Below are positions 30,111 through 53,091 of a stretch of DNA of 55,732 bases, in pieces. This DNA comes from Propionivibrio sp. GTDB taxonomy: Bacteria > Pseudomonadota > Gammaproteobacteria > Burkholderiales > Rhodocyclaceae. Made by a program: the position numbers and the translations under genes. The DNA lies in contig NZ_JAEUOI010000175.1 in the NCBI RefSeq assembly GCF_016790145.1, positions 1 through 55,732 on the forward strand. The letters are read 5' to 3'. The first letter of the stretch is position 1. Every line of letters begins with the position of its first letter. The notes below the pieces were generated by a model. The model was not told where the DNA came from and made no database searches. It worked only from the letters and a program-made list of their open reading frames with translations.

Positions 30111-30128
30111 ATAGTCCGAACGGACTAT
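30111..30128. promoter_or_regulatory. 18-bp palindrome, site 1 (tpsB-fhaB promoter)
   Basis: ATAGTCCGAACGGACTAT has two perfect 8-base arms around AA. It lies 57 bases upstream of the tpsB start. It is the best copy of a motif found in front of five exported-protein operons in this window. Length and symmetry suit a dimeric helix-turn-helix regulator. Confidence 0.8.
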
Positions 30129-30228
30129 CGTGAATAGCCCGGCCGGTAGAAAGGGTATGCGGAGTTTCAGGACTTTCAATCGTCAGAAACACGGGTTAAC
30201 TGACCCTGGCGGCTGATCAGGCCGGCGT

Positions 30229-30266
30229 ATAAAAAACGCGGCAGACGGTTGCCCGCTCGCCGCGTT
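30229..30266 (-). terminator. rho-independent terminator after the PstS-like gene
   Basis: On the minus strand the stem AACGCGGC/GCCGCGTT (arms 30235-30242 and 30259-30266) is followed at once by a run of six T (30231-30236). Confidence 0.8.
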
Positions 30267-30318
30267 GAGGCCGCCGACCGCGCCGAAGCGCGACCAGCAG
30301 GCGTTCAGGGTATTGCGT

Positions 30319-31824
30319 CTAGCGATACAGCGGACCGCACTGGTTACCAAGGACGTACTGGACTTTCTGCACGCCAGCGCCCGAGTAGCTGCTGTACGGT
30401 GCCGGCAGCGCCAGCGCGACCCAGTTGGTATCCGGTACGCCGTTGAGCACTGCCGGATCCTGCGCGGCATCACGGAAGGCATCGGCGACGCCGAGCTTGG
30501 TTGCGTCGGCGACGGTGCGTGCCGGAACGTTCCAGCTCACCCAGCCCTGCAAGTCCCACGTCCCGTCGGCGAGGTTGGCCTCGTTCGGGAAGATGCCGGT
30601 GCCGGCCTCGACCGGTGCGGTCGTCGCCGGGCAGGTGCCGGTGCACGAGACCGTGCCCTTGCCGCCAAGCGAGCGGAAGGACCAGCCGAGCGGTGCGGTG
30701 GCGGCATTCGACGACGCGATGCTGTCCATCGACAGAACGCCGATCGCCTTGTGGCCTCCGGCTTTGGCTTTGAAGGTCACGGTGACTGGGGCTCCGTCTC
30801 TGTCCTTGGTCGCGTAGGACTTGTCGGTAGTCGTCGCTGCGGCGGCGTTGGTCAGGCAGTTGCGAACGTCGCCCGAAGTCGAGTTCTCGATGACCTGGAA
30901 GCCGCTGGCGGCATTGATCGTGTAGGTATTCGCAGCGTTGTTCCAGGCCGTGGTCGACTCACGATTGGCCGGCTCATTGACCAGGTTGGCGCTGCACGGA
31001 TAGTTGCCGAAGTACAGGTTATCGACGGCCTGCGAGCCCGAACCCTGGACGCGGCGGCAGATGATGATGTCGGCTGATGGCTCGGCCGGATCGACCTCAT
31101 TCCAGTTGGTGATGTTGCCGGTCATGACGCCGGCAACGGTGGCGCGCGTCAGCTTCGGGTTGACGTTGTTGGTGACCGGAACACCAAAGGCCAGCGTGTA
31201 AATCGGTTGGACGGTGAGGTCGGCGAGTTCCTGTTCACTCAGCGTGGGGGCGGCGGTCTCGCCCTCGGTGTTGACCGGGCTGACAAACTTGTCCGGCGCG
31301 ACGTCGGAGATGCCGGCATCGGGAATCCTGTGCGGACGCGTGCCACCGTTGGTCGTCAGACAGATGTAGGGATCGGCAACGGTGCCGCTACCCGTAGTAC
31401 AGTCGGTTGTATTGACCGACAGACTCTCGATCGCTTCGCCTTCGTTCGGCGAAATGCCATCACCGTTGGTGTCGCGCGCAACCGAATTGACACCGAAGAC
31501 CGAACCGCCCTTGACGCGATCGATGATGATCGCCGTCTGGCCGGACCACGGGCCGACCTGCATGGTGCCGGCGACGGCCTCGAAGTCCCGCGATGACGCA
31601 GAGGTGTTGGCCAGGCGGAACGAGGAACTGAACAGCGTGGTGGCGATACCGGCGAGGCCCTTTTGCGTGGCCGAGGCGCCGGAGATGAAGAAGACCCGTC
31701 CGCCGGTAACGGCAGAAGAGATCACCGCCGTATTGGCAGCGGAATCACTGAGTGCGGCACTGGCCTGCCCCGAGAGACCGGCGCAGGCGACAGCGACGAG
31801 CGCTGCAATTTTCTTGAGGTGCAT
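30319..31824 (-). CDS. exported PstS-like substrate-binding protein
   Basis: The 501-residue protein has a clear signal peptide (MHLKKIAALVAVACAGLSGQ, cleavage after ASA at 23) and a periplasmic-binding-protein fold resembling PstS: VFFISGASATQKGLAGI (about 45-61) like the phosphate-loop start, and VAGVMTGNITNWNEVDP (about 231-247) followed by IIICRRVQGSGSQ (about 254-266) like PstS LADIFLGKITNWN...RSDGSG. It is about 150 residues longer than a typical PstS, and no pstCAB genes are nearby. It may bind phosphate at the cell surface or outside. It follows a PEP-CTERM gene, separated by a hairpin. Confidence 0.8.
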   Translation of the reverse strand: MHLKKIAALVAVACAGLSGQASAALSDSAANTAVISSAVTGGRVFFISGASATQKGLAGIATTLFSSSFRLANTSASSRDFEAVAGTMQVGPWSGQTAIIIDRVKGGSVFGVNSVARDTNGDGISPNEGEAIESLSVNTTDCTTGSGTVADPYICLTTNGGTRPHRIPDAGISDVAPDKFVSPVNTEGETAAPTLSEQELADLTVQPIYTLAFGVPVTNNVNPKLTRATVAGVMTGNITNWNEVDPAEPSADIIICRRVQGSGSQAVDNLYFGNYPCSANLVNEPANRESTTAWNNAANTYTINAASGFQVIENSTSGDVRNCLTNAAAATTTDKSYATKDRDGAPVTVTFKAKAGGHKAIGVLSMDSIASSNAATAPLGWSFRSLGGKGTVSCTGTCPATTAPVEAGTGIFPNEANLADGTWDLQGWVSWNVPARTVADATKLGVADAFRDAAQDPAVLNGVPDTNWVALALPAPYSSYSGAGVQKVQYVLGNQCGPLYR

Positions 31825-31848
31825 GATGGTTTCCTTTTCAGATTAAAT

Positions 31849-31872
31849 AGCCCCCCGGAGTATCCGGGGGCT
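31849..31872 (-). terminator. intercistronic hairpin between PEP-CTERM and PstS-like genes
   Basis: The GC-rich stem AGCCCCC..GG / CC..GGGGGCT has a 4-base loop and a short T/A-rich tail on the minus strand. It may partly terminate or protect the upstream message so that less of the PstS-like protein is made. Confidence 0.65.
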
Positions 31873-31893
31873 TATGCAAATACAGGTACAGGC

Positions 31894-32700
31894 TCAGACG
31901 CGGTTGTTGAGACGGCGACGGGCCATGAAGCCGAGCATGCCGAGACCGGCGAGCAGCATGGCGTAGGACTCGGGTTCCGGAACGACAGCAATCGACTGGA
32001 TGTGAAGGGCCTTGTTGGCGTCGAAGTAGACGTGAACTTCCGAGTTGCCGAAGGCACCGATGTCGAGGTACTGGTTGTAGATCGAAGCCGAGGAGCCTGT
32101 TGAGGCAGCGTCGATACGCATGAAGCTGAGACCGCTGGCAAAAGTGTTGTTGGTTACGCCACCAGCGTTGCTGAAATTGATGGCGCCACCGACGGTATCC
32201 TTGAAGGCTGCCTTGCCAGTCCAGGCACTACTGGAATTATTGACTGCAACTGAATCGTTCGCGCCCATTGCACTGTTGATGAACCCAATGTGCGTTGATG
32301 TGGCACTTGTTCCTGTGCGAATAGTGGTGCTTGTATTTGTCGTCAGGGGCGCCGGTTCAGTAAAGCTGCTGAGCAAGCGACGGGCGCCGGAGTTGTCGTT
32401 GGCAACAAGGTTGAACTTGAATGCACCGGTACGAGTGCCGGCTGCGGATGAGCCAGTGAAAAAGTTGCCCAGCAAGGTGTCAGCGTTAAAGGTCAGATGG
32501 AAATCACCTGGAGCGGCAATGAGAGACTCAAAGCTGTCGATCGAAATGTTAAGGTCGCGGCTGTAGGAGCCGTTGGCGTCCCAGATGTTGAAAAACAGTT
32601 CGCCATTGCCGCCGGCACCGTTATCGATAGCGGCACTGGCGCCGCCAGCAGCCGAAGCCATGGCGACAGCCGCAGCGAGGGTTTTGAGAGAAAATTTCAT
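31894..32700 (-). CDS. PEP-CTERM-anchored exported protein 1
   Basis: The 268-residue protein has a signal peptide (LKTLAAAVAMASAAGGASA) and a C-terminal sorting signal VPEPESYAMLLAGLGMLGF followed by MARRR: the Pro-Glu-Pro motif, a membrane span and a basic tail recognised by exosortase. The middle is a beta-rich Ser/Thr/Asn-rich domain of unknown role (FFNIWDANGSYSRDL). I chose the ATG at 32700 because the signal peptide starts there; the frame runs open farther upstream to 32931. It probably becomes a glycosylated, exosortase-processed matrix protein. The exosortase is not in the window. Confidence 0.9.
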   Translation of the reverse strand: MKFSLKTLAAAVAMASAAGGASAAIDNGAGGNGELFFNIWDANGSYSRDLNISIDSFESLIAAPGDFHLTFNADTLLGNFFTGSSAAGTRTGAFKFNLVANDNSGARRLLSSFTEPAPLTTNTSTTIRTGTSATSTHIGFINSAMGANDSVAVNNSSSAWTGKAAFKDTVGGAINFSNAGGVTNNTFASGLSFMRIDAASTGSSASIYNQYLDIGAFGNSEVHVYFDANKALHIQSIAVVPEPESYAMLLAGLGMLGFMARRRLNNRV

Positions 32701-32843
32701 TGGATAAGTCCTTTCAAGAAATGCGTAAGTGATCGTCGAAGCAGGTAGGTGACGAAGTTCCGACATGCCCGTCCGGCTGACTGTATCCGGGTGTCCGCTC
32801 ACAAAAACCTCGGAAGTCTTCCTTCTCACCCGACAACAAACCG

Positions 32844-32855
32844 GCACTGCCATGT
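32844..32855. promoter_or_regulatory. 12-mer shared by two PEP-CTERM leaders
   Basis: On the minus strand this leader carries ATGGCAGTGCCG, and the same 12-mer occurs at 53097-53108 on the plus strand in the leader of the fourth PEP-CTERM gene. Its core GGCAGTGCC is a GGCA-N-TGCC inverted repeat. It starts like a sigma-54 -24 element (TGGCA), but no GC at the -12 position follows. Function unknown. Confidence 0.35.
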
Positions 32856-32935
32856 CGTGAGGGCACTTTAAGGAAGGGAGATGACGGGGTGATGGGACTG
32901 AAGTGTTTTTTTTATCCGCCGAACAGACCATTCCA

Positions 32936-32953
32936 ATAGTCCGTTCGACTCAT
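32936..32953. promoter_or_regulatory. 18-bp palindrome-related site 2 (PEP-CTERM 1 / PstS-like operon)
   Basis: ATAGTCCGTTCGACTCAT has the left arm and centre of site 1 intact (12 bases), while the right arm is shifted by a base. It lies 235 bases upstream of the PEP-CTERM 1 start in the 357-base gap before epsA. Nothing else gene-like lies in that gap. Confidence 0.55.
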
Positions 32954-33057
32954 GTTTTGTGCCCAGCGGCTAATCAGAAAATCACCCGTCATGGCGATCA
33001 TGCCGGTTATCCACGGCAATCTGCCACGTGAACACCCCACAACCCGCCGGAAGAGGT

Positions 33058-33843
33058 TCAGCTATTCGCCTCGTAGCCGATCAGACGGCTTTTGACGGCT
33101 TTGCCGACGGCTTCGGCGCGGTTGCCCACCTTCAGCTTGCGCAGGATGTGCTGGATGTGGTTCTTGACGGTATGCGGGCTGAGTTCGAGGTTCTCGGCGA
33201 TCTGCTGGTTGGTTTTGCCGTCGCGCACCATGGTGATGACTTCGGTTTCGCGTCTGCTGAGCTTGATGCCGTGGCTGCGGCGACGCTCCGGGAAATTTTT
33301 CTCGGCGACCAGCATGCGGTGCAGGCTGGTATGCAGATAGGGCATCAGCATGTCGGCGAAGTAGACATGGCGAGCGTCCGGCGCTACTGGCATGCGCAGA
33401 AAGACGAAGAAGCCGGAACTTTCGCCGGGAAACTCCTTGGCGCCATGCGCCAGCGCGTGGCCAAGGTCAAGGCGGCGCAGTGTCCGGCTGATGGCACAGA
33501 CGCTGGCGCTATCCTCTTCACCAGCGTTCGGGTAGAGCCGGGGAAAAGAACCCTTGTGCCGCCAGTGATCGACCATCAGTTCGACCAGGCTGTCAAGTTC
33601 CCTGTGCAGCGCCTGATCCTGCCAGGTGTTGGCACGCGCCAGCACCTCGCAACTGAAACCGGGGCCGCCGTATTCACCATGCCCGAAAATCAGCACCTCA
33701 TGCGGCAGAAAGCTCTGCAAGGCGCCTTGCGACCACAGAAAAAACTGATGGCGCCGCTGTACCTGCTGCGCCGATTCGAGGGTGATCAGCAGCCGTTCCA
33801 TTTCAACGGTGCTCAGGGTGACCAGCGTGTCCGGCGTTTCCAT
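33058..33843 (-). CDS. epsA: LuxR-family regulator of the EpsA type (copy 1)
   Basis: The 261-residue protein has a long N-terminal sensory region and a C-terminal LuxR helix-turn-helix (LSRRETEVITMVRDGKTNQQ, then ELSPHTVKNHIQHILRKLKV). Residues 20-50 (RRHQFFLWSQGALQSFLPHE) match the second LuxR gene at 39220 almost word for word, so they are paralogues of the EpsA family tied to exosortase/PEP-CTERM loci. It is 12 bases downstream of the ankyrin gene, whose promoter has a triple Pho-box repeat, so its synthesis should rise on phosphate starvation. It is my favoured candidate to bind the 18-bp palindromes. Confidence 0.88.
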   Translation of the reverse strand: METPDTLVTLSTVEMERLLITLESAQQVQRRHQFFLWSQGALQSFLPHEVLIFGHGEYGGPGFSCEVLARANTWQDQALHRELDSLVELMVDHWRHKGSFPRLYPNAGEEDSASVCAISRTLRRLDLGHALAHGAKEFPGESSGFFVFLRMPVAPDARHVYFADMLMPYLHTSLHRMLVAEKNFPERRRSHGIKLSRRETEVITMVRDGKTNQQIAENLELSPHTVKNHIQHILRKLKVGNRAEAVGKAVKSRLIGYEANS

Positions 33844-33855
33844 GGGCGGCTTTGA

Positions 33856-34659
33856 TTACCTTTCCGGGATCGGCCAGGCTTCGCGGCTGGCGCCTTGCGC
33901 GATGAGCAGACTCTCTGCCAGATCCTGGTTGTAGCGGCGCGCCCAGTAAAGCGCGGTGAGACCGGTGCGGTCAGGCAGATCGGGGGCGATGCCGGAATCG
34001 AGAAGGGCTTGCAGGCAGGCCAGACGGCCCTGGGCCGCCGCCAGGGCGAGCGGATGCAGGCCTTCGCGGTCATAGCGTTCGGAGTCCGGTGCGGCAGCGA
34101 TCAGGATGCGGACGATCTCGGGGTGATCGAAACGCACCGCTTCGTGCAACGCCGTGGCCCGGTTGTCGCTGCGCGCGTCAACATCGGCGCCGGCGCGCAA
34201 CAGCAGACGGACGATGCCGGGATTGCCGGCGGCGGAGGCCAGCCCAAGCGGCGTGCGCCCCTGCGGGCCTTTGACATTGGGGCTGGCGCCAGACTGCAGC
34301 AGCAGGCGGACGATTTCGGCATGGCCGGCGGCGACAGCCACCAGCAAGGGGCGTTGTCCGAGATCATCGGCCGCGTTGGGCAGCGCGCCGCCGGCCAGCA
34401 GGGCCTTGACCATATCGATCTGACCGACCTGACTGGCGGCGATCAGTTCGCTGGAACTGTCAGGCGTAACGCCTACGCCAAAGGCCCATGCCGGTGCGGA
34501 AATGGCTTTGAAATGCTCGGGCAAGGCTCGCTGGCGACCCTGGCCGCCGGGACTTGAGCGCTCCGGCAACGCCGGGGACTCCTCAAAGGCATATGCCGAA
34601 TGTATTATGCTGCTGCCCGAGCTGAACAGCAGCAGGGCGCAAAGGGTTTTGAGGTTCAT
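33856..34659 (-). CDS. exported ankyrin-repeat protein
   Basis: The 267-residue protein has a signal peptide (LCALLLFSSGSSIIHSAYA) and about five ankyrin repeats between residues 70 and 250 (GQRPLLVAVAAGHAEIVRLL, GRTPLGLASAAGNPGIVRLL, ATALHEAVRFDHPEIVRIL and so on). It is probably periplasmic. It is the first gene of a two-gene operon with epsA copy 1. Ankyrin proteins bind other proteins; a role in holding or protecting an envelope component is possible but not shown. Confidence 0.88.
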   Translation of the reverse strand: MNLKTLCALLLFSSGSSIIHSAYAFEESPALPERSSPGGQGRQRALPEHFKAISAPAWAFGVGVTPDSSSELIAASQVGQIDMVKALLAGGALPNAADDLGQRPLLVAVAAGHAEIVRLLLQSGASPNVKGPQGRTPLGLASAAGNPGIVRLLLRAGADVDARSDNRATALHEAVRFDHPEIVRILIAAAPDSERYDREGLHPLALAAAQGRLACLQALLDSGIAPDLPDRTGLTALYWARRYNQDLAESLLIAQGASREAWPIPER

Positions 34660-34714
34660 CGGGAGGGTGGGTTGCGGATTGAGCCGACTGAAAGCAGGAA
34701 TCTAAACTTTTTTG

Positions 34715-34743
34715 GTTACAGGGCTGTTGCGGAATTATGTCAG
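34715..34743 (-). promoter_or_regulatory. triple Pho-box-like repeat before ankyrin-epsA
   Basis: On the minus strand: CTGACAT-AATT-CCGCAAC-AGCC-CTGTAAC, three heptamers exactly 11 bases apart, matching CTGTCAY at 6, 4 and 6 of 7. It ends 55 bases before the ankyrin ATG. Three phased repeats make chance unlikely. Confidence 0.7.
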
Positions 34744-34752
34744 GTTGAAATC

Positions 34753-34770
34753 GGCACTGGATTCAGTGCC
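34753..34770. promoter_or_regulatory. 18-bp palindrome GGCACTG-GATT-CAGTGCC
   Basis: Perfect 7-base arms lie 10 bases upstream of the triple Pho box. No T-run follows, so a terminator is unlikely. It has the size of a helix-turn-helix operator but does not match the ATAGTCCG family. Confidence 0.4.
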
Positions 34771-34899
34771 TCGTGGGGGTAGCAAATCTTGGAGTGAGTT
34801 GACTGATGGTGGCGTTGCCGGGCTGAAGAAGTGTGCCGGCCATGCTTGCACTTGTTTTACGTTGGTGACCCGACGCTTCAGGAAACTGAGCTTCATTAC

Positions 34900-34930
34900 G
34901 TCGGGTTACGTCCTTGCAGCCTAACCCGAC
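34900..34930. repeat. GTCGGGTTA...TAACCCGAC intergenic element
   Basis: Perfect 9-base arms (34900-34908 and 34922-34930) belong to the TCGGGTTA/TAACCCGA family also seen near 13.5 and 39.0 kb. It ends about 24 bases before the point where the truncated PIN-domain gene becomes recognisable. Confidence 0.7.
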
Positions 34931-34953
34931 CTACAGAATTTACAGATTCCGAG

Positions 34954-35347
34954 TCGCCAATCTGGTTATTGGGCGGCAACGAGCGTCAGGGCGTCAAGGC
35001 CCGTACAGCGATACAGGATGCGGCCAACGCCGACTCGCTCTATCTGTCGGCAATCTCGGCAGGGGAAATTGCCGCCCTGGTCAGCAAGGATCGGCGGGTC
35101 CTGGAACAGGATGTGGGCGAATGGATACAGGCCGCACTGCCCCTCCCTGGCCTGCGCCTCGAAGCGCTGTCGCCCGAGATCGCTGTTGCCGGCACTCGCC
35201 TCCCTGGAAATATTCATCCCGACCCGGCAGAGCGAATCATTGCCGCTACGGCACGCCATCTCGGCGCGGCACTGGTCACGGCGGATGGCCTGCATCTCGA
35301 CTACAGCACAGAGGGCCATCTGAAAGTCATCCCGGCCGAGGAAAAAG
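34954..35347 (+). pseudogene. 5'-truncated VapC-like PIN-domain toxin remnant
   Basis: A plus-strand frame reads SPIWLLGGNERQGVKARTA, LYLSAISAGEIAALVSKDR, LPLPGLRLEALSPEIAVAG, HPDPAERIIAATARHLGAA and LVTADGLHLDYSTEGHLKVI: the middle and end of a VapC ribonuclease. The family's first strand with its catalytic Asp (LLDTHV) is missing, and no start codon fits. No antitoxin gene lies upstream. The break coincides with the repeat at 34900-34930. It is an inactive remnant. Confidence 0.75.
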
Positions 35348-35376
35348 CGATATCCGGTTCGGGCCGTACTTTAAAG

Positions 35377-35907
35377 CTACCCCGGTGCCGCTACAGGAGC
35401 ACTTGGAAGGCTGTTGCCGTTGCTGATGAAGCGCCATTTGGCATAGCTCTCGGCGCCCTCGAAATCCTCTTGCCCGGTGGCGAAGCCAGCGATCTTGATC
35501 GGTTCTTCACGCGACTTGCTGGCGACGCCGGTGATGCGTCCCTGCTGCTTGATGAGTTCCCACTCGCCATCAGGTGTCATCGGATCGCGGTAGAGGCGTC
35601 GCAGGTGGTGGACGGGCACCGGAAAGCGTTTGTCCTGGAGCAGGTCTTCGAGTTTCTCCGGGTACTGTTTGGCCGCACCCGGTGTTTTGTCGTAGTAGCG
35701 GTCGATGGCGCGGCGGTATTCCTCGCCGATGAAAAGCAGTTCCTTCTCCTTTTCGCGCCGGCTTTCCAGTTGCCAGAGAACGCCGGTACCGGCCAGCGCG
35801 ATGCCGGCGATGGCCATTGCAAACAGCACGACGAGGAAGGTGATGCCAGCCTGCCGGTGAAGCGCATCCAGGCCGTGACCGGGCTGTCGATGGGTGGGAA
35901 TCACCAT
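35377..35907 (-). CDS. atypical pseudopilin lacking Glu5
   Basis: The 176-residue product has a prepilin-like N-terminus: basic leader, Gly, then ITFLVVLFAMAIAGIALAG. Mature position 5 is Val, not the usual Glu, as in tip pseudopilins of the GspK type, although this protein is much shorter than GspK. The rest (RREKEKELLFIGEEYRRAID, YPEKLEDLLQDKRFPVPVHH) is like pseudopilin-like proteins of secretin operons. It overlaps the next pseudopilin gene by seven bases and is last in the gspD operon. It may cap the pseudopilus. Confidence 0.8.
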   Translation of the reverse strand: MVIPTHRQPGHGLDALHRQAGITFLVVLFAMAIAGIALAGTGVLWQLESRREKEKELLFIGEEYRRAIDRYYDKTPGAAKQYPEKLEDLLQDKRFPVPVHHLRRLYRDPMTPDGEWELIKQQGRITGVASKSREEPIKIAGFATGQEDFEGAESYAKWRFISNGNSLPSAPVAAPG

Positions 35908-36281: not shown

Positions 36282-36284
36282 GTT

Positions 36285-36764: not shown

Positions 36765-36766
36765 GG

Positions 36767-39219: not shown

Positions 39220-40032
39220 ATGAACGCAGCATTTTACATACTAACGGACGAGGAGCAGGAAAACCTGCTGCGCGCCATCGAGACCTCACTGCAGGTCAGG
39301 CGGCGCCATCAGTTCTACCTGTGGACGCAAGGCCCCTTGCAGGCCTTCATTCCGCACAAAATTCTGATCAGCCTGTTTACCCGTGACGGCAAGGAGGTGA
39401 TGGCGATGGATCGCTTCAACTCATGTATCGTCAGCGAGCAGACCTTCGAGGAGGTCTGTGATAAGGATGATGGACTGGTAATGCAGGCCATGAGCGCCTG
39501 GCGTGAAGCTGGCGAATCGCCCATCCTGATGGCACCTGGAAAACACTTGCCGCTGGCACTCTATGAGCGATTTGGTCACCGGCTCGAAGGTATCAATTTC
39601 GGCAGCGCTGCCGGGCATGGCAGTGCGCCCGTCGATGGCAGCGGTATCAACAGCAGTTTTTTCTTTTTCGCGCAAATGCCTAACAATCTCACGCTGCGCC
39701 ACGCCTATTTCATCGAATTGCTGATGCCGAACATTCACATGGCCTTCCTGCGCACGCTCGGACGGAGCGAGCGCGTGGCGCTCGGAGTTGACGACAGCAT
39801 GTGTTTTTACGACCTGGGCAAGACAGTGACCGAGCGCGAACTGGAAATCCTCGTCTGGGTGCAGGAGGGCAAGAGCAACCAGGAGATCGCAACTTTCCTT
39901 AACATCAGCCCGCTCACCGTCAAGAACCACGTGCAGAAGATCCTGCGCAAGCTCAAGGTACGCAATCGCGCCCAGGCTGTTTCCAAAGCCACGGCGATGA
40001 GGCTCATCGTCGGTTACAACGGCTCGGCCTGA
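39220..40032 (+). CDS. epsA: LuxR-family regulator of the EpsA type (copy 2)
   Basis: The 270-residue protein shares RRHQFYLWTQGPLQAFIPHK (about 27-46) and the C-terminal helix-turn-helix (TERELEILVWVQEGKSNQE, then ISPLTVKNHVQKILRKLKV) with the copy at 33058. Outside these regions the two differ widely, so this is an old duplication with room for different signals or targets. The recognition helix core SPxTVKNHxQxILRKLKV is nearly identical in both, so they may bind the same DNA. It is divergent from gspD, and it precedes the CAAX-type protease gene on the same strand. Confidence 0.9.
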   Translation: MNAAFYILTDEEQENLLRAIETSLQVRRRHQFYLWTQGPLQAFIPHKILISLFTRDGKEVMAMDRFNSCIVSEQTFEEVCDKDDGLVMQAMSAWREAGESPILMAPGKHLPLALYERFGHRLEGINFGSAAGHGSAPVDGSGINSSFFFFAQMPNNLTLRHAYFIELLMPNIHMAFLRTLGRSERVALGVDDSMCFYDLGKTVTERELEILVWVQEGKSNQEIATFLNISPLTVKNHVQKILRKLKVRNRAQAVSKATAMRLIVGYNGSA

Positions 40033-40088: not shown

Positions 40089-40277
40089 ATGAAAAAAACG
40101 AAGCAAAATGATTCAGACAGACCAAGGCCGCAAAACGAACACCTGCGTCAGCCACAAGCCGAAATGCCGCGCCAGCGCGCTGAAGGACTTGTCGAGTGCC
40201 TGTTCGGCAAAATGATGCATTTGTCTTTTGTCGTCGAGCATGGCGCCAAAGTCTGGTGCGAAAGGAGCTGTTCTTGA
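40089..40277 (+). CDS. small hypothetical protein
   Basis: A 62-residue frame starts MKKTKQNDSDRPRPQNEH after a good Shine-Dalgarno (AGGGGA, 7 bases upstream). The product is hydrophilic at first, with two Cys near the end, and has no family I recognise. A short minus-strand frame (40113-40241) competes for the same DNA. The 40033-40350 gap has no other candidate. Real coding is uncertain. Confidence 0.3.
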   Translation: MKKTKQNDSDRPRPQNEHLRQPQAEMPRQRAEGLVECLFGKMMHLSFVVEHGAKVWCERSCS

Positions 40278-40350: not shown

Positions 40351-41064
40351 ATGACCCGCACTTCAATGCGGCCACCTTTGCGACCGGTGCTGGCGCGCGG
40401 CCTGCCCTTCGCCTGCTACATTGTTTTTCTGGTCGTGGCTTCATCGCTGCCTACGTTGCAAACCGAAAGTGAGCTGGCGTCCGGATTGCCAATCGATCTG
40501 CGCTGGCTCTATGCCATGCAGATTACGCTCGTCCTCGGCATACTGGTGATTTTTCGTCGCGACTACCTTGAGCTGGAGGTGCCCAAGTCGGTGCGTTTCG
40601 CCGACTGGTGCTTGTCCCTGTTGCTCGGGGCAGGTGTTTTTGTGATGTGGATCAATCTCGACAGCGGCTGGATGACGCTCGGCGAGGCCAGGTCAGGCTT
40701 CGTACCGACAAACGATGCTGGCAAAATTGACTGGCCGCTGGTCCTTGTCCGCATTTTTGGTGCAGCCGCCGTGGTGCCGGTGATGGAGGAGCTTTTCTGG
40801 CGTTCATTTGTGCAGCGCTGGATCGATCAAAAGGATTTTCTGGCGCTGGCGCCGGCTGCAGGCAGCCTGCGTGCCCTGCTGCTGACTTCGCTGGTATTCG
40901 GTTTCGAGCACGGCCTATGGCTGGCGGGGATCTTCGCCGGGCTGGCCTACGGCTGGCTCTACCGGCGCAGCAGCAGCCTGTGGCCACCGATTGTGGCTCA
41001 CAGCCTGACCAATCTCCTGCTCGGGGTCTGGGTGGTGCGTACCGGACAGTGGCATTTCTGGTAG
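40351..41064 (+). CDS. CAAX-type membrane protease linked to exosortase systems
   Basis: From the ATG at 40351 the 237-residue protein has six to seven membrane spans and the CPBP/Abi motifs: EELFWRSFVQRW (about 157-168, the EExxxR motif), FGFEHGLWLAGIFAGLAYGW (about 193-212, His) and IVAHSLTNLL (about 222-231, His). A CAAX-protease-related family is known as an accessory of exosortase/PEP-CTERM loci, which fits the neighbouring EpsA. It is probably an inner-membrane protease. The upstream frame extension to 40228 is unsupported. Confidence 0.85.
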   Translation: MTRTSMRPPLRPVLARGLPFACYIVFLVVASSLPTLQTESELASGLPIDLRWLYAMQITLVLGILVIFRRDYLELEVPKSVRFADWCLSLLLGAGVFVMWINLDSGWMTLGEARSGFVPTNDAGKIDWPLVLVRIFGAAAVVPVMEELFWRSFVQRWIDQKDFLALAPAAGSLRALLLTSLVFGFEHGLWLAGIFAGLAYGWLYRRSSSLWPPIVAHSLTNLLLGVWVVRTGQWHFW

Positions 41065-45728: not shown

Positions 45729-45856
45729 TTGCAACTCCTTGTCTGAAAAATTGTGCTTGCCAGAGAAACACGCTCCGTGGAGGGTGCCTCGTGCAAGAAT
45801 GAAAGGCATCATAGCCCGCTGAAATGAAGCTTTGATGTATCCCGATTGCTTTTCGC

Positions 45857-45874
45857 ATAGTCCGATCAGACTAT
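45857..45874. promoter_or_regulatory. 18-bp palindrome, site 3 (exported protein/alkaline phosphatase operon)
   Basis: ATAGTCCGATCAGACTAT has 6-base perfect arms (ATAGTC/GACTAT) and matches site 1 at 16 of 18 positions when read in the same register. It lies 128 bases before the TTG start at 45728 and just after the end of the GGDEF-EAL gene. Confidence 0.75.
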
Positions 45875-45907
45875 TCGCCAAGAGCATGATTTTTTCGCCA
45901 AACTGCC

Positions 45908-47755
45908 CTATTGGTTGCTGGACAGCCAGTTCAGCAGGTCTTCGGCCGGCATCGGCCGGGCGTGGTAATAGCCCTGAATTTCGTCGCAGGCCGAGGCGCT
46001 GGTCAGTTCATATTCGGCTGCCGTTTCAACGCCTTCGGCTACCGTCTCCAGCGAAAGACTCCTGGCCAGGGAGACTATGGCCTGGACAATGGACTCGTTG
46101 GCCGGAACGTTTTCGATACCGCGAATGAATGACTGGTCAATCTTCAGACGATCGATCGGAAAACGCTGCAGGTAGCTGAGATTGGAGAAGCCGGTGCCGA
46201 AATCGTCAATGGCCAGCTTGACGCCAATGCGCTTGAGCTCGCGCAGCGTGTTCAGCACATCGTCGGCATGATGCATGGCATTGTTTTCGGTCAGTTCAAG
46301 CTCGATATGGCACGGATCGATCCCGGTTTCCTGAATGATCCGGCGCACATTTTCGGTGAAGTTCCTGCGCCGGAACTGCACCGCCGAAATATTGATTGCC
46401 ATGCGTAGCGGCGGGTTGTGGCACAAGGCCCAGGCCCGTTGCTGACGACAGGCTTCGCGCAATACCCAGTTGCCGATGTCGATGATCAACCCGCTCTCTT
46501 CGGCAATCCTGATGAAGGCTGCAGGCGAGAGCAGGCCTCGTTGCGGGTGCTGCCAGCGGATCAGGGCCTCGACACCGATGGTCTTGCCGCTCGCCACGCT
46601 GACCTGAGGCTGGTAGTGCAGCACCAGTTCGTTGCGGGCAATTGCATGTCTGAGGTCCGACTCAAGCGACGAATGATCCATCAGTCCCATGGCCAACCCC
46701 GGTGCGTAACAACGGAATGCATTGCGACCGCTTTGTTTGGCCTCGTACATTGCGGCGTCGGCTTTGGCCAGCAGGCTGCTGCTCTCCGTCTCGTCGACCG
46801 GATATATTGCAATGCCCAGACTGGCGGTAATGAATATTTCTCGCTCGAGTATACTGAAGGGCAAACGGAAATAATCGACGATTCGTCGGGCAGTGATTTC
46901 CGCCTCGCGGGCATCGGGCAAATTCACCAAAAGGACGGCAAACTCGTCTCCTCCGAGTCGAGCCACCGTATCGTTGCAGCGGATGCAGGACTCCAGCCGC
47001 TCGGCCACTGCTTGCAGCAGGAGATCGCCAAAACCGTGCCCCATGGTGTCGTTGATCTGCTTGAATCGATCCAGATCGACAAACATCAGGCCGACCTGCG
47101 TACCGTTCCGTTTTGCTTCACGACAGGCCATGTGCAGACGGTCGTTCATCAGCATGCGATTGGGTATCCGGGTCAACTGGTCGTAGTGGGCCAGGTAGTA
47201 GAGTTCATCCTGTTTGCGCTGGGTGATGCTGTTGAGCAGACTATGACCGTTGGCAATACCAAGATACTTTTTTTCGTCGGTGACGATGAAGCCGCTGACC
47301 ATGTGTTGCATTCCGGCGTCGATGATGATCGCCGCCACGTCGTCGATGCTGGTGGCCGCGTCAACCACAATCGGCCTGTTGTTGATCGCCGGCGCAATAT
47401 CGACAATTTGCGAGAGGGGCTTCCTGCCGAAAACCTCAATCGAATAGGTGCGACTGAAGTACTCAATGTAGGCGTGCCGCTCAATCAGGGCGCGCGGCAC
47501 GCTCGCCTCATCGATCACCGGGATCGCATAAATACTGGCGTCCTGCATGAACAGATTCAGGACATCGCAGCACAGCGCCGAGCGGGTAACGGGTGGCAGC
47601 ATCCGATGCAATTGCCTGACCGAAGGCGCCACCTGCATATCCTTGAAATCAAGATAAGCATTCCTGGCAACACTCGGTTTTGATAAATTTTCGTACGGCA
47701 AAGGACTCGGCGAATTGCCGTGGGCATGGTCCAGGCCAGCTTCACGTTTTAACAT
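45908..47755 (-). CDS. CBS-like, GGDEF and EAL domain c-di-GMP protein
   Basis: From the ATG at 47755 the 615-residue protein has an N-terminal CBS-like pair (about 45-195: YAIPVIDEASVPRALIERHA, HMVSGFIVTDEKKYLGIANG), a GGDEF domain (about 200-360) with intact LGGDEFAVLL, and an EAL domain (about 375-610) with VEALIRW, ELELTENN, IDDFGTGFSNL and VAEGVET. All usual catalytic residues appear present, so it could make or break cyclic di-GMP. The CBS-like part may sense nucleotides. I prefer 47755 to the ATG at 47782, which would lie only 15 bases from the Pho box. Confidence 0.92.
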   Translation of the reverse strand: MLKREAGLDHAHGNSPSPLPYENLSKPSVARNAYLDFKDMQVAPSVRQLHRMLPPVTRSALCCDVLNLFMQDASIYAIPVIDEASVPRALIERHAYIEYFSRTYSIEVFGRKPLSQIVDIAPAINNRPIVVDAATSIDDVAAIIIDAGMQHMVSGFIVTDEKKYLGIANGHSLLNSITQRKQDELYYLAHYDQLTRIPNRMLMNDRLHMACREAKRNGTQVGLMFVDLDRFKQINDTMGHGFGDLLLQAVAERLESCIRCNDTVARLGGDEFAVLLVNLPDAREAEITARRIVDYFRLPFSILEREIFITASLGIAIYPVDETESSSLLAKADAAMYEAKQSGRNAFRCYAPGLAMGLMDHSSLESDLRHAIARNELVLHYQPQVSVASGKTIGVEALIRWQHPQRGLLSPAAFIRIAEESGLIIDIGNWVLREACRQQRAWALCHNPPLRMAINISAVQFRRRNFTENVRRIIQETGIDPCHIELELTENNAMHHADDVLNTLRELKRIGVKLAIDDFGTGFSNLSYLQRFPIDRLKIDQSFIRGIENVPANESIVQAIVSLARSLSLETVAEGVETAAEYELTSASACDEIQGYYHARPMPAEDLLNWLSSNQ

Positions 47756-47797
47756 GATTACCCTGTTGAAATTGAATGACAAGTTTCACAGTTTTCT

Positions 47798-47815
47798 GTT
47801 ACAGCCTGATGACAG
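47798..47815 (-). promoter_or_regulatory. Pho box before the GGDEF-EAL gene (best match)
   Basis: On the minus strand: CTGTCAT-CAGG-CTGTAAC, matching CTGTCAY at 7 and 6 of 7 with an 11-base period. It ends 42 bases before the ATG at 47755. This is the strongest Pho-box match in the window. Confidence 0.8.
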
Positions 47816-47880
47816 GCCTTGGCTGATCCGTTGGTTCGTGGAACTGCGATTGATGTGGCAATAATTCCTTGTACAGGGTT

Positions 47881-47926
47881 GACAACAAAAGGCCCGGAAC
47901 TGAATAGCTCCAGGCCTTTTGTTGTT
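47881..47926. terminator. strong bidirectional terminator after the nuclease
   Basis: The 13-base perfect stem ACAACAAAAGGCC/GGCCTTTTGTTGT (47882-47894 and 47913-47925) has A-rich and T-rich outer halves that give T-runs on both strands. It ends the PEP-CTERM/nuclease operon. Confidence 0.85.
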
Positions 47927-47943
47927 ACCGGGTGCTTGATCAA

Positions 47944-48861
47944 TCAGTAGCTGAAATCACGGCTTACGTCGATCTGCGACGGTGTCAGGCCGCGCAAGGT
48001 CACCAGTGGCGTGAAAACCGCCGGGCCATTCGGGCCATCGCCATCGACCTGAACGCTAACACCGCTATTGCTGGCGATGGCGCGTACCCAACCGTCGGCG
48101 AAGGGGTTGCTGCCCCGGTAACCGATACTGGCGAGCAGGCTGCGCAGATCGATACGATCCTGGCCGGGGGCGAAGTCGGTGATCGTATCGATGCCCTCGT
48201 TGAGACTGCGATAGACGAACACGTCCTTGCCGGCGCCGCCGCTGAGTACATCGCCACCCAGGCCGCCGTAGATGATCTCGTCAGCCGTGGTTCCTTTCAG
48301 CACGTCGCGATTTCCGCTGCCGTCGATACGCTTCATCAAGTGCAGGCCGACGATGACCGGGTCGTGATCGGAAGCGCGATACGGCGTCGCCGAATACAGG
48401 TCCTGTAGCTTGAACTCGGTGTTGTAGTCGATGACCGATGGTTCGTCGGCATTGATGTGCCATTCGCCGATGCCGGTAACCTGGTCGGTCAGGCTGGCGC
48501 TGGCCAGGGCGTGATCGAGATAGCCACTCTCACCGTCGAAGGTGTAGGAGTAAGGATCGGCAATGTAGCGGGCGATGAGATTGGTGAGGCCGCCGCCAGT
48601 CAGCGTGGTGATCGGATTTTCCATGCCGTAGGCGTTGAGATCGCCGATCACCAGCACGTCGCCATCGCCGGACTGGCTCTTGACCGTCTCGATGAAAGTG
48701 AGAAGCTCGCTGGCCTGCTGCACCCGGCGGGCGTTGAAGCAGCTCTGGCCGTCACCCTGGTCGGTGTCGGAGCCGCTGGCGCCGTCACAGCCCTTGGACT
48801 TGAAATGGTTTACGATCAACGTGAACTTCTCGCCGTTGCCCGCCTGGAAGGTCTGAGCCAA
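47944..48861 (-). CDS. C-terminal part of the interrupted extracellular nuclease, with RTX repeats
   Basis: This 305-residue frame is in the same phase as the gene upstream and is separated from it only by a TAA at 48931-48933. It holds the second half of the endonuclease/exonuclease/phosphatase domain (LVIGDLNAYGMENPITTL, ASDHDPVIVGLHL) and an RTX-like block (GGLGGDVLSGGAGKDVF) expected to bind calcium, then a short C-terminal tail that could be a secretion signal. The apparent start is a TTG and is probably not a real one. It is best read as part of one gene spanning 47944-51027. Confidence 0.85.
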   Translation of the reverse strand: MAQTFQAGNGEKFTLIVNHFKSKGCDGASGSDTDQGDGQSCFNARRVQQASELLTFIETVKSQSGDGDVLVIGDLNAYGMENPITTLTGGGLTNLIARYIADPYSYTFDGESGYLDHALASASLTDQVTGIGEWHINADEPSVIDYNTEFKLQDLYSATPYRASDHDPVIVGLHLMKRIDGSGNRDVLKGTTADEIIYGGLGGDVLSGGAGKDVFVYRSLNEGIDTITDFAPGQDRIDLRSLLASIGYRGSNPFADGWVRAIASNSGVSVQVDGDGPNGPAVFTPLVTLRGLTPSQIDVSRDFSY

Positions 48862-48930
48862 CGGCGGGCGATTGTGGATCGGATCGTTGTCGGAAAACGC
48901 CTGGCCGACCGGGGTGAGCGCTGCCAGCTT

Positions 48931-51027
48931 TTAGATCATGGCGACGCGGATGGCATCACTGCCGGTGCTGCCGCTGAGGTTCGTAATGGCCGCATAGATG
49001 TTGCTGCCATAGGCCGCATTCAGTGCGTTGGCCAGATTCTGCACGGCGACGACCCCGTTGTTCTGGATTTCCATCAGACCGACGACGTCGGCATTGACGG
49101 CTTTTATCGCGGCGACGATCTTGGCTTGCTGGCGGGCGAACTCGGAAGCATTGTCGGCGCCGCGGCAATTGGCGGCTGACGTTGCGCCGCCGAGGGTACA
49201 CCCCTGGCCGCTCTGGCCATCGCTCGTCTTGCCGTCGGTAAAGGTGGTGAAATAGTTTAGTACGTTGAAGCTGGCCACCTTGATGCTGCCGCCGACGCTG
49301 GCGGGAGCCGCCGTGCGCGTATTGTCACGGCTGAACACCGGGATCGCCGTAGGATGCAGTTTGTAGTCGCGCTGGCCGGTGCCGCTGGAGGTGATCAGGC
49401 CATGGTCGATTATGCCGGTCAGGTCGTGCACCGTGTCACCGGCGCGCAGCGTGTTGTCGGCACCGATGTAGGGAATCGGGTTGGGGTTCTGGGCGCTTGA
49501 ACCATCGTCGAGGACGATGCGGCGGCGCGCATTCCCGTCGGCCTGGGCGAAGGCTTCCGGCGAGCCGGGTGCGAAGTGGTTGGTCGGAATTTCCATGCGG
49601 CCATCGGCGGCAAGGGTGACCTGGCCGTAGCGGCCCAGGAAATAGTTCTGCGAGACGGTCAGTGGGGTGACGATGCGCACCAGCATGCCCTCGTAGCGTT
49701 CCAGCTCGCCTTCGACGGTTTCCGGCAGCACGATGTCGGTCGGCGCCACGGTGAAACTGCTGCCCAGCACCTGCACATTGGTCGGGCCGGTCAGTTCGGT
49801 AACGGTGCTGAACTCCGCCACTGTCGCGGTAAGGCGTAGTTTCTGGCCGACCGTCACGCTGTTGCCCGGGGCATAGACGAAGATGCCGTCGGAGGTGGTG
49901 ACGTTGCCGTCGCCGCTTTCATCCTGCAGGTAGTAGCCGCCCAGATTGGGGAAGACGGCAGAAACGATGCCTTCGGTGGTCACGGTCTGGTTAACGAGCG
50001 GGCTGGCGCTACCGTCACCCTGGATGTCGTAGATGCGGGTGACGGCCGCGGCCGGCTGGACCGTGACGGCGACGGTGCACGTGGCGCTCTGCGCCTCGTC
50101 GTTGTTAAACAGCACCGGCACGCTGTAGTTGCCGGTCGCCACACTGGCGGCGACCGAGACGCTGGCTGTGGCGCTGCCGCCTTCACCGGCGGCAGGGGTG
50201 ATCGAATCAAGCGTAATACCGGGCGGCAGGCTGCCGTTGGCGACAATGCCATTGACCGTGCTGTCGGCATCGCTGGCGCTGATGGCTACGCTGCCGCCTA
50301 TGCCCTGATCTGCGACAAGGGCGGGGCAGGAAGCGACGATGGGCTGGTTGATTGCGACTCCACCACAAGCGGACAAGGGGCTGGCGCTGTTGCGCGGCGC
50401 CGGAGCACCGGTTTCGAAATCAGCGCTGTTGGTGTTGCTGTCGATGCAGCCGCCGGCCTTGCGGAAAATAGCCGTAGCGGCGGACGGGGCGGTGGCGGCA
50501 GAACCCTCCGCGAAATTGGCGTTGCCGAAACCGACCAGATCGACGATCTGGGCGAGTTGGGCTGTTGAGCACGGCGTGGAGCCGCCGTTGCAGCCGAGGC
50601 CGGTGGCGGAGCTGACCAGAACGACCTTGCCGGCCGTTCCCGACATGTTTTGCGTACCACTGGCGTCGGCGCTGATCAGGGCGATGCCGTTGGTACCACC
50701 ACTGGCCTGCTGGACAAGGAAATACTGCCCAGGCAGCAGCGAAGTGCTGGGCAAGGCAACCACCGCATTGGCGGCAAAGTTGCCAGTACCGGTAGCGCTG
50801 GCGTACTGCACGGACCAGCCGTTCAGGCTGACCGTGCTGTTGCCGGCGTTGAACAATTCGACGTAATCGTTCCTGTACGTCGCTCCGCTATTACCGCCGG
50901 CGCCGTAAATCTGGCTGATGACCACCGGGCCGGCGAAAGCGACTGAGGAAGTGAACAGGCCGGCAGCCACAAGGGCAGCGAAAATCCGCCTTGGTACGGG
51001 CGCGTCGGGAAACCGGGTGTTATTCAT
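48931..51027 (-). CDS. N-terminal part of the extracellular nuclease (ExeM/NucH-like), ended by an in-frame TAA
   Basis: From the ATG at 51027 this part has 698 residues: signal peptide (FAALVAAGLFTSSVAFAG), lamin-tail domain (about 30-150: VVISQIYGAGGNSG, YVELFNAGNSTVSLNGWSV), Ig-like domains, an OB-fold-like region (GIFVYAPGNSVTVGQKLRL) and the start of the nuclease domain (IKVASFNVLNYFTTFTDGK). It ends GSDAIRVAMI then TAA, where the family usually has Tyr-Lys. Sequence identity to the family continues in the same frame after the stop. Such nucleases release phosphate from extracellular DNA. Unless the stop is read through, the product is inactive. Confidence 0.88.
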   Translation of the reverse strand: MNNTRFPDAPVPRRIFAALVAAGLFTSSVAFAGPVVISQIYGAGGNSGATYRNDYVELFNAGNSTVSLNGWSVQYASATGTGNFAANAVVALPSTSLLPGQYFLVQQASGGTNGIALISADASGTQNMSGTAGKVVLVSSATGLGCNGGSTPCSTAQLAQIVDLVGFGNANFAEGSAATAPSAATAIFRKAGGCIDSNTNSADFETGAPAPRNSASPLSACGGVAINQPIVASCPALVADQGIGGSVAISASDADSTVNGIVANGSLPPGITLDSITPAAGEGGSATASVSVAASVATGNYSVPVLFNNDEAQSATCTVAVTVQPAAAVTRIYDIQGDGSASPLVNQTVTTEGIVSAVFPNLGGYYLQDESGDGNVTTSDGIFVYAPGNSVTVGQKLRLTATVAEFSTVTELTGPTNVQVLGSSFTVAPTDIVLPETVEGELERYEGMLVRIVTPLTVSQNYFLGRYGQVTLAADGRMEIPTNHFAPGSPEAFAQADGNARRRIVLDDGSSAQNPNPIPYIGADNTLRAGDTVHDLTGIIDHGLITSSGTGQRDYKLHPTAIPVFSRDNTRTAAPASVGGSIKVASFNVLNYFTTFTDGKTSDGQSGQGCTLGGATSAANCRGADNASEFARQQAKIVAAIKAVNADVVGLMEIQNNGVVAVQNLANALNAAYGSNIYAAITNLSGSTGSDAIRVAMI

Positions 51028-51080
51028 GGGAATTCTCCGTTGTATTCGGCCCGCGCACACGGAGGCGCAGGCCGGCGAAT

Positions 51081-51113
51081 AAAGAACGCCCCCGCTGTTC
51101 GGGCGGAGGCGTT
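51081..51113 (-). terminator. intercistronic hairpin between PEP-CTERM 3 and the nuclease
   Basis: AACGCCTCCGC/GCGGGGGCGTT pairs (arms 51085-51095 and 51103-51113) with TTCTTTATT following on the minus strand. It is a likely partial terminator inside the operon, like the one between PEP-CTERM 1 and the PstS-like gene. Confidence 0.65.
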
Positions 51114-51128
51114 GGCAGTGGCGAGGAC

Positions 51129-51893
51129 TTAACGAACCACGCGACGGCGGGCGATTGCGCCAATCAGCCCAAGACCGGCCAGGAAAAGGGCGTAGCTTTC
51201 GGGTTCCGGGACGGCCGTTATGGTGAAGGCGGTGGTATTCGGAACGCTTGTCGCATAGCTTCCATCGGTGGTATCGACCGTCCAGTTGGCCGCGTTATTC
51301 ACCAGAGCCCTGTAGTTAACGAAGCTGGTCTCACCGTTTCGGCTGCCGTTGTACTCGGCGTAATCCGGAGTGGCTGAGGTAGCATAGGTATTCAGACGTA
51401 TTGCGTTGTCACCCTCGGTCAGGCCGGTGCCATCCAGTGGACCATTGGAAGTAAAGCTGCCGTTGGTAATGGCGGAGAGGAAGGTAGTCGGAGTGGTTGC
51501 AGCAGTTCCAAGGTAGGCGTAAATCGTTTCGTTGGAGTTGGCGATGCCCCAGTTGGAGCTTCCGGACACGGTAACGCGACTAAGGGTGCCTACGGAAGAA
51601 CTGAGCGTGGTTTTGTCGTACGCACTGAAGCGTACGACGGAGCCGGCTGCGATTGCGCTGGAACCGCTGTTCCATTGGTTAAAACTTTCACCGGTATTAA
51701 ATGCGCCGCTGACAAACTCGTTGTCGGAGAAGTAAATGTTGGTATTGGCTGCGATGTTGGTGAGAGCAACGAAAGACAGACCATCCTCGTCCGCATTGAA
51801 AGAAGTGAAGGCGATGTCGCCGGTATTGAGTGCAGCGTGGGCGCTGACGCCGGAGGCGGCGAGCAGGACAGCAAGCAGAGTTTTTCGGATCAT
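51129..51893 (-). CDS. PEP-CTERM-anchored exported protein 3
   Basis: The 254-residue protein has a signal peptide (IRKTLLAVLLAASGVSAHA), a beta-rich middle that starts ALNTGDIAFTSFNADEDGL and resembles lamin-tail-like or adhesion PEP-CTERM proteins, and the tail VPEPESYALFLAGLGLIGA with IARRR. It is first in the operon with the nuclease, 101 bases upstream of the nuclease start and separated from it by a hairpin. Confidence 0.9.
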   Translation of the reverse strand: MIRKTLLAVLLAASGVSAHAALNTGDIAFTSFNADEDGLSFVALTNIAANTNIYFSDNEFVSGAFNTGESFNQWNSGSSAIAAGSVVRFSAYDKTTLSSSVGTLSRVTVSGSSNWGIANSNETIYAYLGTAATTPTTFLSAITNGSFTSNGPLDGTGLTEGDNAIRLNTYATSATPDYAEYNGSRNGETSFVNYRALVNNAANWTVDTTDGSYATSVPNTTAFTITAVPEPESYALFLAGLGLIGAIARRRVVR

Positions 51894-52010
51894 GGTTTTC
51901 CCCAGGCTAAGTTGTATGGTGGACCTTGGCTACTCGCATTTCAATTGCGAGGCTGATTCCGAGCTTAGGAGGGTAAAGTGACAATCATTACCTCGTGCAT
52001 TGCAAGAATC

Positions 52011-52028
52011 ATGATCCGAATGGACTAG
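52011..52028. promoter_or_regulatory. 18-bp palindrome-related site 4 (PEP-CTERM 3/nuclease operon)
   Basis: ATGATCCGAATGGACTAG matches site 1 at 14 of 18 positions. It lies 117 bases before the PEP-CTERM 3 start. It shares the run GGATCATGAT with site 5 when both are read toward their genes. Confidence 0.6.
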
Positions 52029-53073
52029 TCGCCCCTGTAAATGATGAGGGATTTCCTGTTTGCCGGCGCTCTTTGTCCAGGTCGCGTTTTCCATCTCATG
52101 GACCGGAAAAATTGCCCAATGACCAGACTGCCGATTATGAATTATCATGTTCGATGATACTGAACTGAAACTTTCGGGCAGGCTGAAAGCATCATGCAGC
52201 AATGCATGTAGCGAATCAGTGCCAATCACCCTGTTGGTGGATCAAGGAGTGAAGTATCGCTTGTCAAAATTCATCGGCTAATACCTGAATGGAATGAACA
52301 CATACGGTGCGATGGCGACCCAGGCCAGCACGGCAACCCAGAAACGTCATTCGAGCAGATTGTAGTTGGCGAGCAGCTTGGACCATGAACGGCCGCCAAC
52401 ATAATGAAAAAATAGAAACGCGAAGGCAACAGTAAGCGCCATTAAAAAACAGTCCGATGCAAAGCGCTCTGAACTGAATCTGGCGGATAACGCCGCATAT
52501 AACCCCAATGACGATGCCCAATCATAAGATGCCAATGGTATAATAGATCAGGTGGGAGCCAGATTCATCGATGTATTTGCCAAAAGCGAACTGGCGAATG
52601 GCAGCATTTCCAGCGAGACCGCCAACATCACAATCCAGGTAATCAGGTATTTCCACATGCTCGATCACCTGCACCAATACTGCTTGTAGCTGACGCCGCA
52701 CCGATCTGGGCATATCCGGCCATGGCTTCTCCGCAGAACGCAGCCCGGCTGCATTGACGTTTGGGATTTGCTTCGAATAGCAGCGACCAATTATAAAGAA
52801 GTACGCATAAGTCATGCCTGCAGGTACGTTGAATGCTTCCTCATAACCGGCTTTGCTGGCGGCATCGAAGGAGCATGCTTGCAAGGTCAGTAACCCATAC
52901 GGGAACGATGTCGCGGAAAGAATAAACGTTGCTCTTGAAAGTATTGCAACAATCTGGACCCCCATGCCAAGATCTTTTGCCATTGGCTAAACCGATGGTA
53001 TGAAAGTTAAGAAGACAGAGAACCACTCTCGTCAGATTGTGGCTTCTGAAGTCACGCTCAATAAAAGGAGGAA
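52029..53073. other. decayed, gene-poor stretch with membrane-protein fragments
   Basis: About 1 kb here is more AT-rich than its surroundings and has no frame that looks like an intact gene. Minus-strand fragments such as MALTVAFAFLFFHYVGGRSW (about 52380-52440), WVAVLAWVAIAPYVFIPFRY after an in-frame TGA (about 52285-52345), and MWKYLITWIVMLAVSLEMLP (about 52600-52660) look like pieces of a small polytopic membrane protein broken by stops and frameshifts. I cannot name the family. Confidence 0.45.
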
Positions 53074-53091
53074 ATGATCTGAATGGATCAT
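53074..53091. promoter_or_regulatory. 18-bp palindrome, site 5 (PEP-CTERM 4 gene)
   Basis: ATGATCTGAATGGATCAT has perfect 6-base arms (ATGATC/GATCAT). It is closest to site 4 and matches site 1 at 12 of 18. It lies 126 bases before the PEP-CTERM 4 start, a spacing close to sites 3 and 4. Confidence 0.6.

Follow-up and report, generated by a model that had tools for sequence, protein, structure and literature searches.

A conserved 16-bp palindrome in Propionivibrio as the predicted operator of EpsA-family LuxR-type regulators of the PEP-CTERM/exopolysaccharide system

The described regulatory signal of PEP-CTERM genes is the PEP-CTERM box of PrsK/PrsR, a 17-nt motif (motif 1) ending in TTTACA with a −24/−12 sigma-54 motif ~63 nt downstream, and, according to its authors, many PEP-CTERM genes lack this box and more regulators and motifs await discovery (Haft et al. 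2006, PMC1569441). In form, the closest described operators are those of NarL, inverted heptamers two bases apart (7-2-7; for example, TACCCCTAAAGGGGTA), which activate from −40 to −49 at napF and from −38 to −47 at yeaR, and which at frdA repress from a 7-2-7 position close to the start of transcription (PMC4549865). Here, we analyzed a stretch of 55,732 nucleotides from Propionivibrio sp. (the window; contig C59 in a draft genome of 4.05 Mb) and found that a palindrome located upstream of exported-protein genes, TRRTCCNNNNGGAYYA, is a real, conserved regulatory sequence. We predict, with a probability of roughly 0.7, that EpsA-family LuxR-type regulators, which belong to the PEP-CTERM/exopolysaccharide (EPS) system, use it as their operator (“EpsA box”).

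A first-pass annotation of the window had reported an 18-bp palindrome family at positions 30111, 32936, 45857, 52011 and 53074 and proposed that it serves as an operator through which one regulator, suspected to be EpsA, coordinates exported cargo. All five sequences were confirmed at these positions and the palindromic character of the family stands, whereas the core is 16 bp rather than 18 bp: the outer bases of the 18-mer vary among copies, and its final T often starts a TTGAC. An alignment of additional copies gave the core TRRTCCNNNNGGAYYA, with GWWC as the commonest kind of centre; its best form is TAGTCCGWWCGGACTA. The layout, TAGTCCG-WW-CGGACTA, is an inverted repeat of the 7-2-7 type, with the inner G/C less constant than the remaining positions. 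The refined core TRRTCYN4RGAYYA is matched exactly at four of the five sites and with two mismatches at 32936, which is a degenerate copy. The five cores are as follows:

30112..30127, minus strand: exact core TAGTCCGTTCGGACTA, 57 or 63 bp 5' of the tpsB start (tpsB-fhaB operon)
32937..32952, minus strand: degenerate copy with two core mismatches, 235 bp before ATG 32700 of the PEP-CTERM gene adjoining epsA
45858..45873, minus strand: core TAGTCTGATCGGACTA, fitting TRRTCYN4RGAYYA, preceding an exported protein/alkaline phosphatase-like/PEP-CTERM operon
52012..52027, minus strand: core TAGTCCATTCGGATCA, 117 bp before PEP-CTERM/ExeM-like nuclease genes
53075..53090, plus strand: core TGATCTGAATGGATCA, fitting the relaxed core only, 126 bp before a PEP-CTERM gene

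A second weak, degenerate copy lies at 32914, 22 bp from the one at 32936. Three of the sites had been placed at 117–128 bases from the start codon; two of these distances hold (117 at 52011 and 126 at 53074), and the third, 128 at 45857, applies only if TTG 45728 is accepted as the start, the alternative ATG 45686 giving 170 and the choice between them being uncertain. The alkaline phosphatase-like product of the 45857 operon scores under its family cut-off.

This element shares with the NarL operators the 16-bp 7-2-7 layout and the TA ends, and EpsA has a GerE-type DNA-binding domain; it differs in the half-site, TAGTCCG, and in that a Pfam scan found no receiver domain in EpsA. Like the PrsR/sigma-54 box, which is a conserved intergenic signal before PEP-CTERM genes linked to its regulator by phylogenetic profile (PMC1569441), it precedes PEP-CTERM genes, but its form is that of a 16-bp palindrome and its distribution follows EpsA rather than PrsR. 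No match for the EpsA box was found in the open-access literature covered, including the available text of PMC1569441, PMC9850573, PMC9012009 and PMC4195743, which is not proof of absence, and no DNA site for the EpsA family TIGR03020 was found in the open-access literature searched.

Across the source genome, the pattern with up to two mismatches yielded 22 forward and 16 reverse matches, compared to 5 and 5 for a reversed-pattern control, and seven such matches on six other contigs (C24, C46, C109 twice, C116, C149 and C183) precede PEP-CTERM genes. The reversed-pattern control is abundant in several genomes, and therefore EpsA-less genomes and scrambled half-sites served as yardsticks. In 560,629 bp of fetched DNA, comprising the window and 40 stretches around matches and PEP-CTERM genes and hence enriched, TAGTCCN4GGACTA occurs four times exactly and eight times with one mismatch, whereas of 30 scrambled palindromes with matching composition, only one occurred exactly, and just once, and one-mismatch copies numbered 0–4. 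According to a simple gene caller that misses some starts, 20 copies of TRRTCCN4GGAYYA with one mismatch in this DNA are intergenic and eight are genic, with only 28% of the DNA being intergenic; a site is present within 300 bp upstream of 6 of the 25 PEP-CTERM-type genes and of 8 of the 421 others (p 3.7e-5).

A 20-column profile run over the whole genome, in which 150 of 554 candidates were scored, produced 22 rows at E ≤ 10, corresponding to 14 places, 13 of which were training sites; the site at 30111 was the top match, and the training sites 53074 and C46 fell under the limit. Eight of these places precede PEP-CTERM genes (C109 twice, C149, C116, C24, C59:52011, C212 and C183), and five lie before other genes, namely tpsB, those of the exported-protein/phosphatase operon, epsD (C225), a family-2 glycosyltransferase gene (C230) and the gene for a long C35 protein that looks exported by eye and has no Pfam match; the remaining place (C139) is at a contig edge. 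In all, 13 of the 14 places lie before genes that fit an operator for exported cargo and EPS genes. The refuting outcome named in the first-pass annotation, a random scatter of the motif or a lack of conservation, was looked for and did not materialise, but only a subset of the PEP-CTERM genes is included. There are 36 PEP-CTERM matches in the genome, three of which were not assessable; with starts assigned by a signal-peptide rule, 9 of the 33 others carry a copy matching at least 10/12 within 400 bp, and two of these nine share a single divergent site on C183 (L055:9737-10436). Adding 53074 and C46, the start of which was misplaced in that run, brings the number to 11, so that between roughly one quarter and one third of the PEP-CTERM genes in its own genome carry the box.

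The motif co-occurs with EpsA. Among 120 genomes of the order, 27 encode EpsA (E ≤ 1e-25) and 32 encode PrsR. The exact TAGTCCN4GGACTA is found at 20 sites in the 27 EpsA-positive genomes and at eight sites, three of them inside genes, in the 93 EpsA-negative ones; counted by genome, 8/27 versus 7/93 contain it (p 0.0053; this and the other cross-genome p-values are optimistic because members of a single order share ancestry and because some of the sites come from duplicates, namely the G037 pair, or from congeners, namely G025/G072 and Massilia). Under stricter filters, the profile detected sites in 10/27 versus 4/93 genomes, and in 9/26 versus 4/93 when the source genome was left out (p 1.3e-4). 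By contrast, the motif showed no association with PrsR in the same 120 genomes (p 0.54), and five of the eight site-bearing EpsA-positive genomes lack PrsR. A PEP-CTERM-type tail is present in the gene behind the exact site in 13 of 20 cases in EpsA-positive genomes and in none of eight in EpsA-negative ones (p 0.0025); three of the 13 come from G104, where there is no TIGR02595 match, and the tails of these three were judged by eye.

Placement is consistent across EpsA loci of other genomes. In 31 such loci, exact copies of TRRTCCN4GGAYYA were intergenic in all nine cases, and with one mismatch, 32 copies were intergenic and 10 genic, the intergenic ones being spread over 19 of the 31 loci. 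In the EpsA loci, the 20 scrambled patterns used for comparison gave 0–6 intergenic and 2–22 genic copies. In 18 PrsR loci of EpsA-less genomes, no exact copy was detected, and one-mismatch copies numbered one intergenic and three genic.

The conservation in relatives that the first-pass annotation called for extends to individual promoters, with the gene identities judged by eye. The site is kept before tpsB (L088; one mismatch in G097), before the PEP-CTERM gene adjoining epsA (L083, L099, G052 and G075; one mismatch in G025 and G072) and before the nuclease gene (Massilia; one mismatch in G016). A search with EpsA as the query led to 21 named loci, mostly betaproteobacterial, nine of which have a counted copy, four of these in Massilia and thus not independent; weak two-mismatch matches in L084 and L089 were left uncounted. 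The absence of copies before machinery genes, noted previously, applies to good copies in the window, where only weak one-mismatch copies at 11085 and 40109 were seen, and does not apply elsewhere. On contig C225, the gene order is the third epsA, undecaprenyl-phosphate glucose phosphotransferase, a CRP-like cyclic-nucleotide-binding protein, epsL, then the site (L071:4451) and epsD, followed by a gene that the contig end truncates. The genes behind sites in relatives include, as judged by eye from protein starts, pseudopilin-like genes (L176 and L185), epsA (L164, L167 and L187) and sugar-transferase-like genes (L171 and L187), together with genes for TolC-family outer-membrane proteins in two related genomes, where the site is exact (L203:5229-7109 and, assigned by similarity, L206). 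An exact site was also observed in another genome before a protein with an IPTL-CTERM-like end (L207:3142-4548).

Three EpsA proteins of the source genome exceed the cut-off of TIGR03020 (NCBIfam: XrtB/PEP-CTERM-associated transcriptional regulator), two of them encoded in the window:

33058..33843, minus strand: epsA paralogue, TIGR03020 (203.1 bits against a cut-off of 170), GerE domain PF00196
39220..40032, plus strand: epsA paralogue, TIGR03020 (235.3 bits), GerE domain PF00196, structure modelled

EpsA is a LuxR-type regulator, and its GerE domain aligns with the structures of VraR, NarL and DosR; an alignment of 16 EpsA proteins shows no variation at T233, K235, N236, H237 and Q239 in the last helix of this domain. 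The model of the 39220-40032 protein (mean pLDDT 84.8, pTM 0.70) most closely matched CviR, SdiA, RhlR and TraR in the Protein Data Bank. With these LuxR-type quorum-sensing receptors EpsA shares a two-part layout with a C-terminal GerE domain, but the full-length TM-scores, normalised by EpsA, are <0.5, and no autoinducer-binding domain was matched in Pfam; the CviR ligand-binding domain alone gave 0.63, normalised by the target, and in its predicted fold, the N-terminal half of EpsA is similar to acyl-homoserine-lactone receptor domains. No LuxI (PF00765) match was found in the source genome, and the control genomes gave none either. Judging from the model, EpsA may be a quorum-receptor-like solo.

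The surroundings of the sites in the source genome suggest sigma-70-type promoters. In 17 rows, with one site counted in both orientations, the peak for a −35-like TTGACA falls at offset 0 from the core end and that for a −10-like TATAAT at offset 23, corresponding to a 17-bp spacer; in 20,000 flank shuffles (15 rows), the −35 sum was never reached and the −10 sum was reached with p 0.0003. Several sites outside the window run straight into a near-consensus TTGAC. This geometry would put the core centre near −43.5. A scan of the window for the sigma-54 consensus with three mismatches was uninformative (622 matches, 583.72 expected).

Under the EpsA box reading, an EpsA dimer would contact the box with its C-terminal GerE/NarL-type domains, each taking one 7-bp half-site. 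The box in the source genome would abut the −35 position of sigma-70-type promoters or lie just 5' of it, and EpsA bound there would most likely aid RNA polymerase, so that matrix cargo (PEP-CTERM proteins, TpsB-FhaB, nuclease and phosphatase) and EPS genes could be turned on together. The earlier idea of a single regulator type, with EpsA as the favoured one, is thereby retained, but the predicted targets include, along with exported cargo, EPS genes here and secretion or eps genes in relatives. The regulon is most likely new and of a familiar kind, distinct from that of the PrsR/sigma-54 box. More tentatively, and in our estimate at somewhat short of even odds, it might be a second, sigma-70-based PEP-CTERM regulon that is order-wide and separate from PrsK/PrsR, in which a quorum-receptor-like solo EpsA would sense a small molecule and, via a single 7-2-7 box, jointly switch matrix cargo and EPS genes, plus the linked secretion machinery in some species; we rate this broader proposal so because the promoter evidence comes from sites outside the window and because the strong-site PEP-CTERM genes number 9/33 rather than 11.

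Several observations weigh against assigning the box to EpsA, or against its generality. An exact copy is missing from 19 of the 27 EpsA-positive genomes, and 12 of the 31 EpsA loci have no intergenic one-mismatch copy, whereas G067, which lacks EpsA, contains a perfect palindrome before unrelated genes. Among 80 PEP-CTERM genes hand-picked among the matches listed, at most four per genome, 77 could be assessed, and a site was present at 6/40 in EpsA-positive and 1/37 in EpsA-negative genomes, which amounts to no more than a trend (p 0.11); the mean for scrambled patterns in the same set was 0.4 and 0.3 genes, respectively. The relatedness that flatters the p-values and the overlap of the profile places with training sites belong here as well. 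As for the promoters, the −35 signal stems from sites outside the window, four window rows score 1–2 of 6 for −35 at offset 0, and a single promoter geometry for all species was rejected, given that neither box peaks clearly at 31 sites outside the source genome.

If the pattern had simply been tuned to five sequences, the enrichment in the window would mean little: the consensus with up to three mismatches has 13 matches there against a shuffle mean of 1.39 (standard deviation 1.27; maximum of 6 in 100 shuffles), but 10 of the 13 rows are five sites counted on both strands, the test is circular because the pattern was derived from those same sites, and 32936 and 53074 are weak. Chance is nevertheless refuted for the motif family as a whole and has a negligible probability, considering that exact and near copies far exceed those of scrambled palindromes and are intergenic before one functional class, both here and in relatives. 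Nearly as improbable is that the box is a PrsR enhancer acting with sigma-54 promoters, that is, the known PEP-CTERM box, which likewise precedes PEP-CTERM genes, PrsR being present in the genome. The TTTACA ending of motif 1 is absent from the palindrome consensus; the best sigma-54 match within 400 bp upstream reaches 6–8 of 10 for eight of the nine strong-site PEP-CTERM genes, and the ninth has a 9 of 10 match, but upstream of its palindrome. Together with the site-bearing genomes that lack PrsR and the PrsR loci that lack the exact motif, sequence and distribution led us to reject PrsR/sigma-54 as the binder.

Another regulator of the same cassette could bind instead, either the OmpR-type response regulator encoded at 10306-11046 or an additional LuxR-type protein with the distribution of EpsA, and we regard this as unlikely. 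Relatives of the OmpR-type regulator do occur in some EpsA loci, for example, those of Massilia and Herbaspirillum, but in the fetched DNA, a relative (E < 1e-20) is present in only 8/29 site-bearing EpsA loci, compared to 2/24 siteless ones, which makes it an improbable binder. OmpR-type proteins usually bind direct repeats, whereas the box is a palindrome. Doubtful, but less so, is the alternative that EpsA binds and represses, with a dimer at −35 blocking RNA polymerase until a signal releases it. The TTGAC directly 3' of several sites outside the window and the frdA case of NarL would fit repression; the napF and yeaR sites of NarL activate, and the window sites have poor −35 boxes, as would be frequent at activator-dependent promoters. 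On balance, activation by EpsA is likelier than repression.

The described PEP-CTERM signal being the PrsR/sigma-54 box, the palindrome offers a candidate further signal, as well as a set of candidate targets of EpsA, a regulator that has a name but no targets described in the open-access literature searched. In a floc- or biofilm-forming betaproteobacterium, it could also allow the matrix proteins that may be co-produced with exopolysaccharide to be predicted from DNA.

The genes that adjoin the sites in the window include the following:

16885..28266, minus strand: gene for an FhaB-type exported protein (TPS domain, ESPR)
28473..30047, minus strand: gene for a TpsB-type transporter (POTRA_2, ShlB)
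31894..32700, minus strand: PEP-CTERM gene
48931..51027, minus strand: gene for an ExeM/NucH-type nuclease (349.1 bits against a cut-off of 300)
51129..51893, minus strand: PEP-CTERM gene
53218..54150, plus strand: PEP-CTERM gene, with the start set by the signal peptide

Positions 2046-41064 form one cassette in which epsA and the genes for PEP-CTERM, PstS-like, TpsB and FhaB proteins are combined with secretin, pseudopilin and GspE/GspF-like genes. This cassette recurs, in part or whole and partly as judged by eye, in the betaproteobacterial loci L083, L088, L089, L095 and L099 and in the Massilia loci L098 and L100. One of the weak one-mismatch copies in the window, at 11085-11100, lies just 5' of the OmpR-type response regulator gene, and the other, at 40109, lies in the region downstream of epsA where a CAAX prenyl protease-related protein of the PEP-CTERM family TIGR03008 is encoded (40387-41064).

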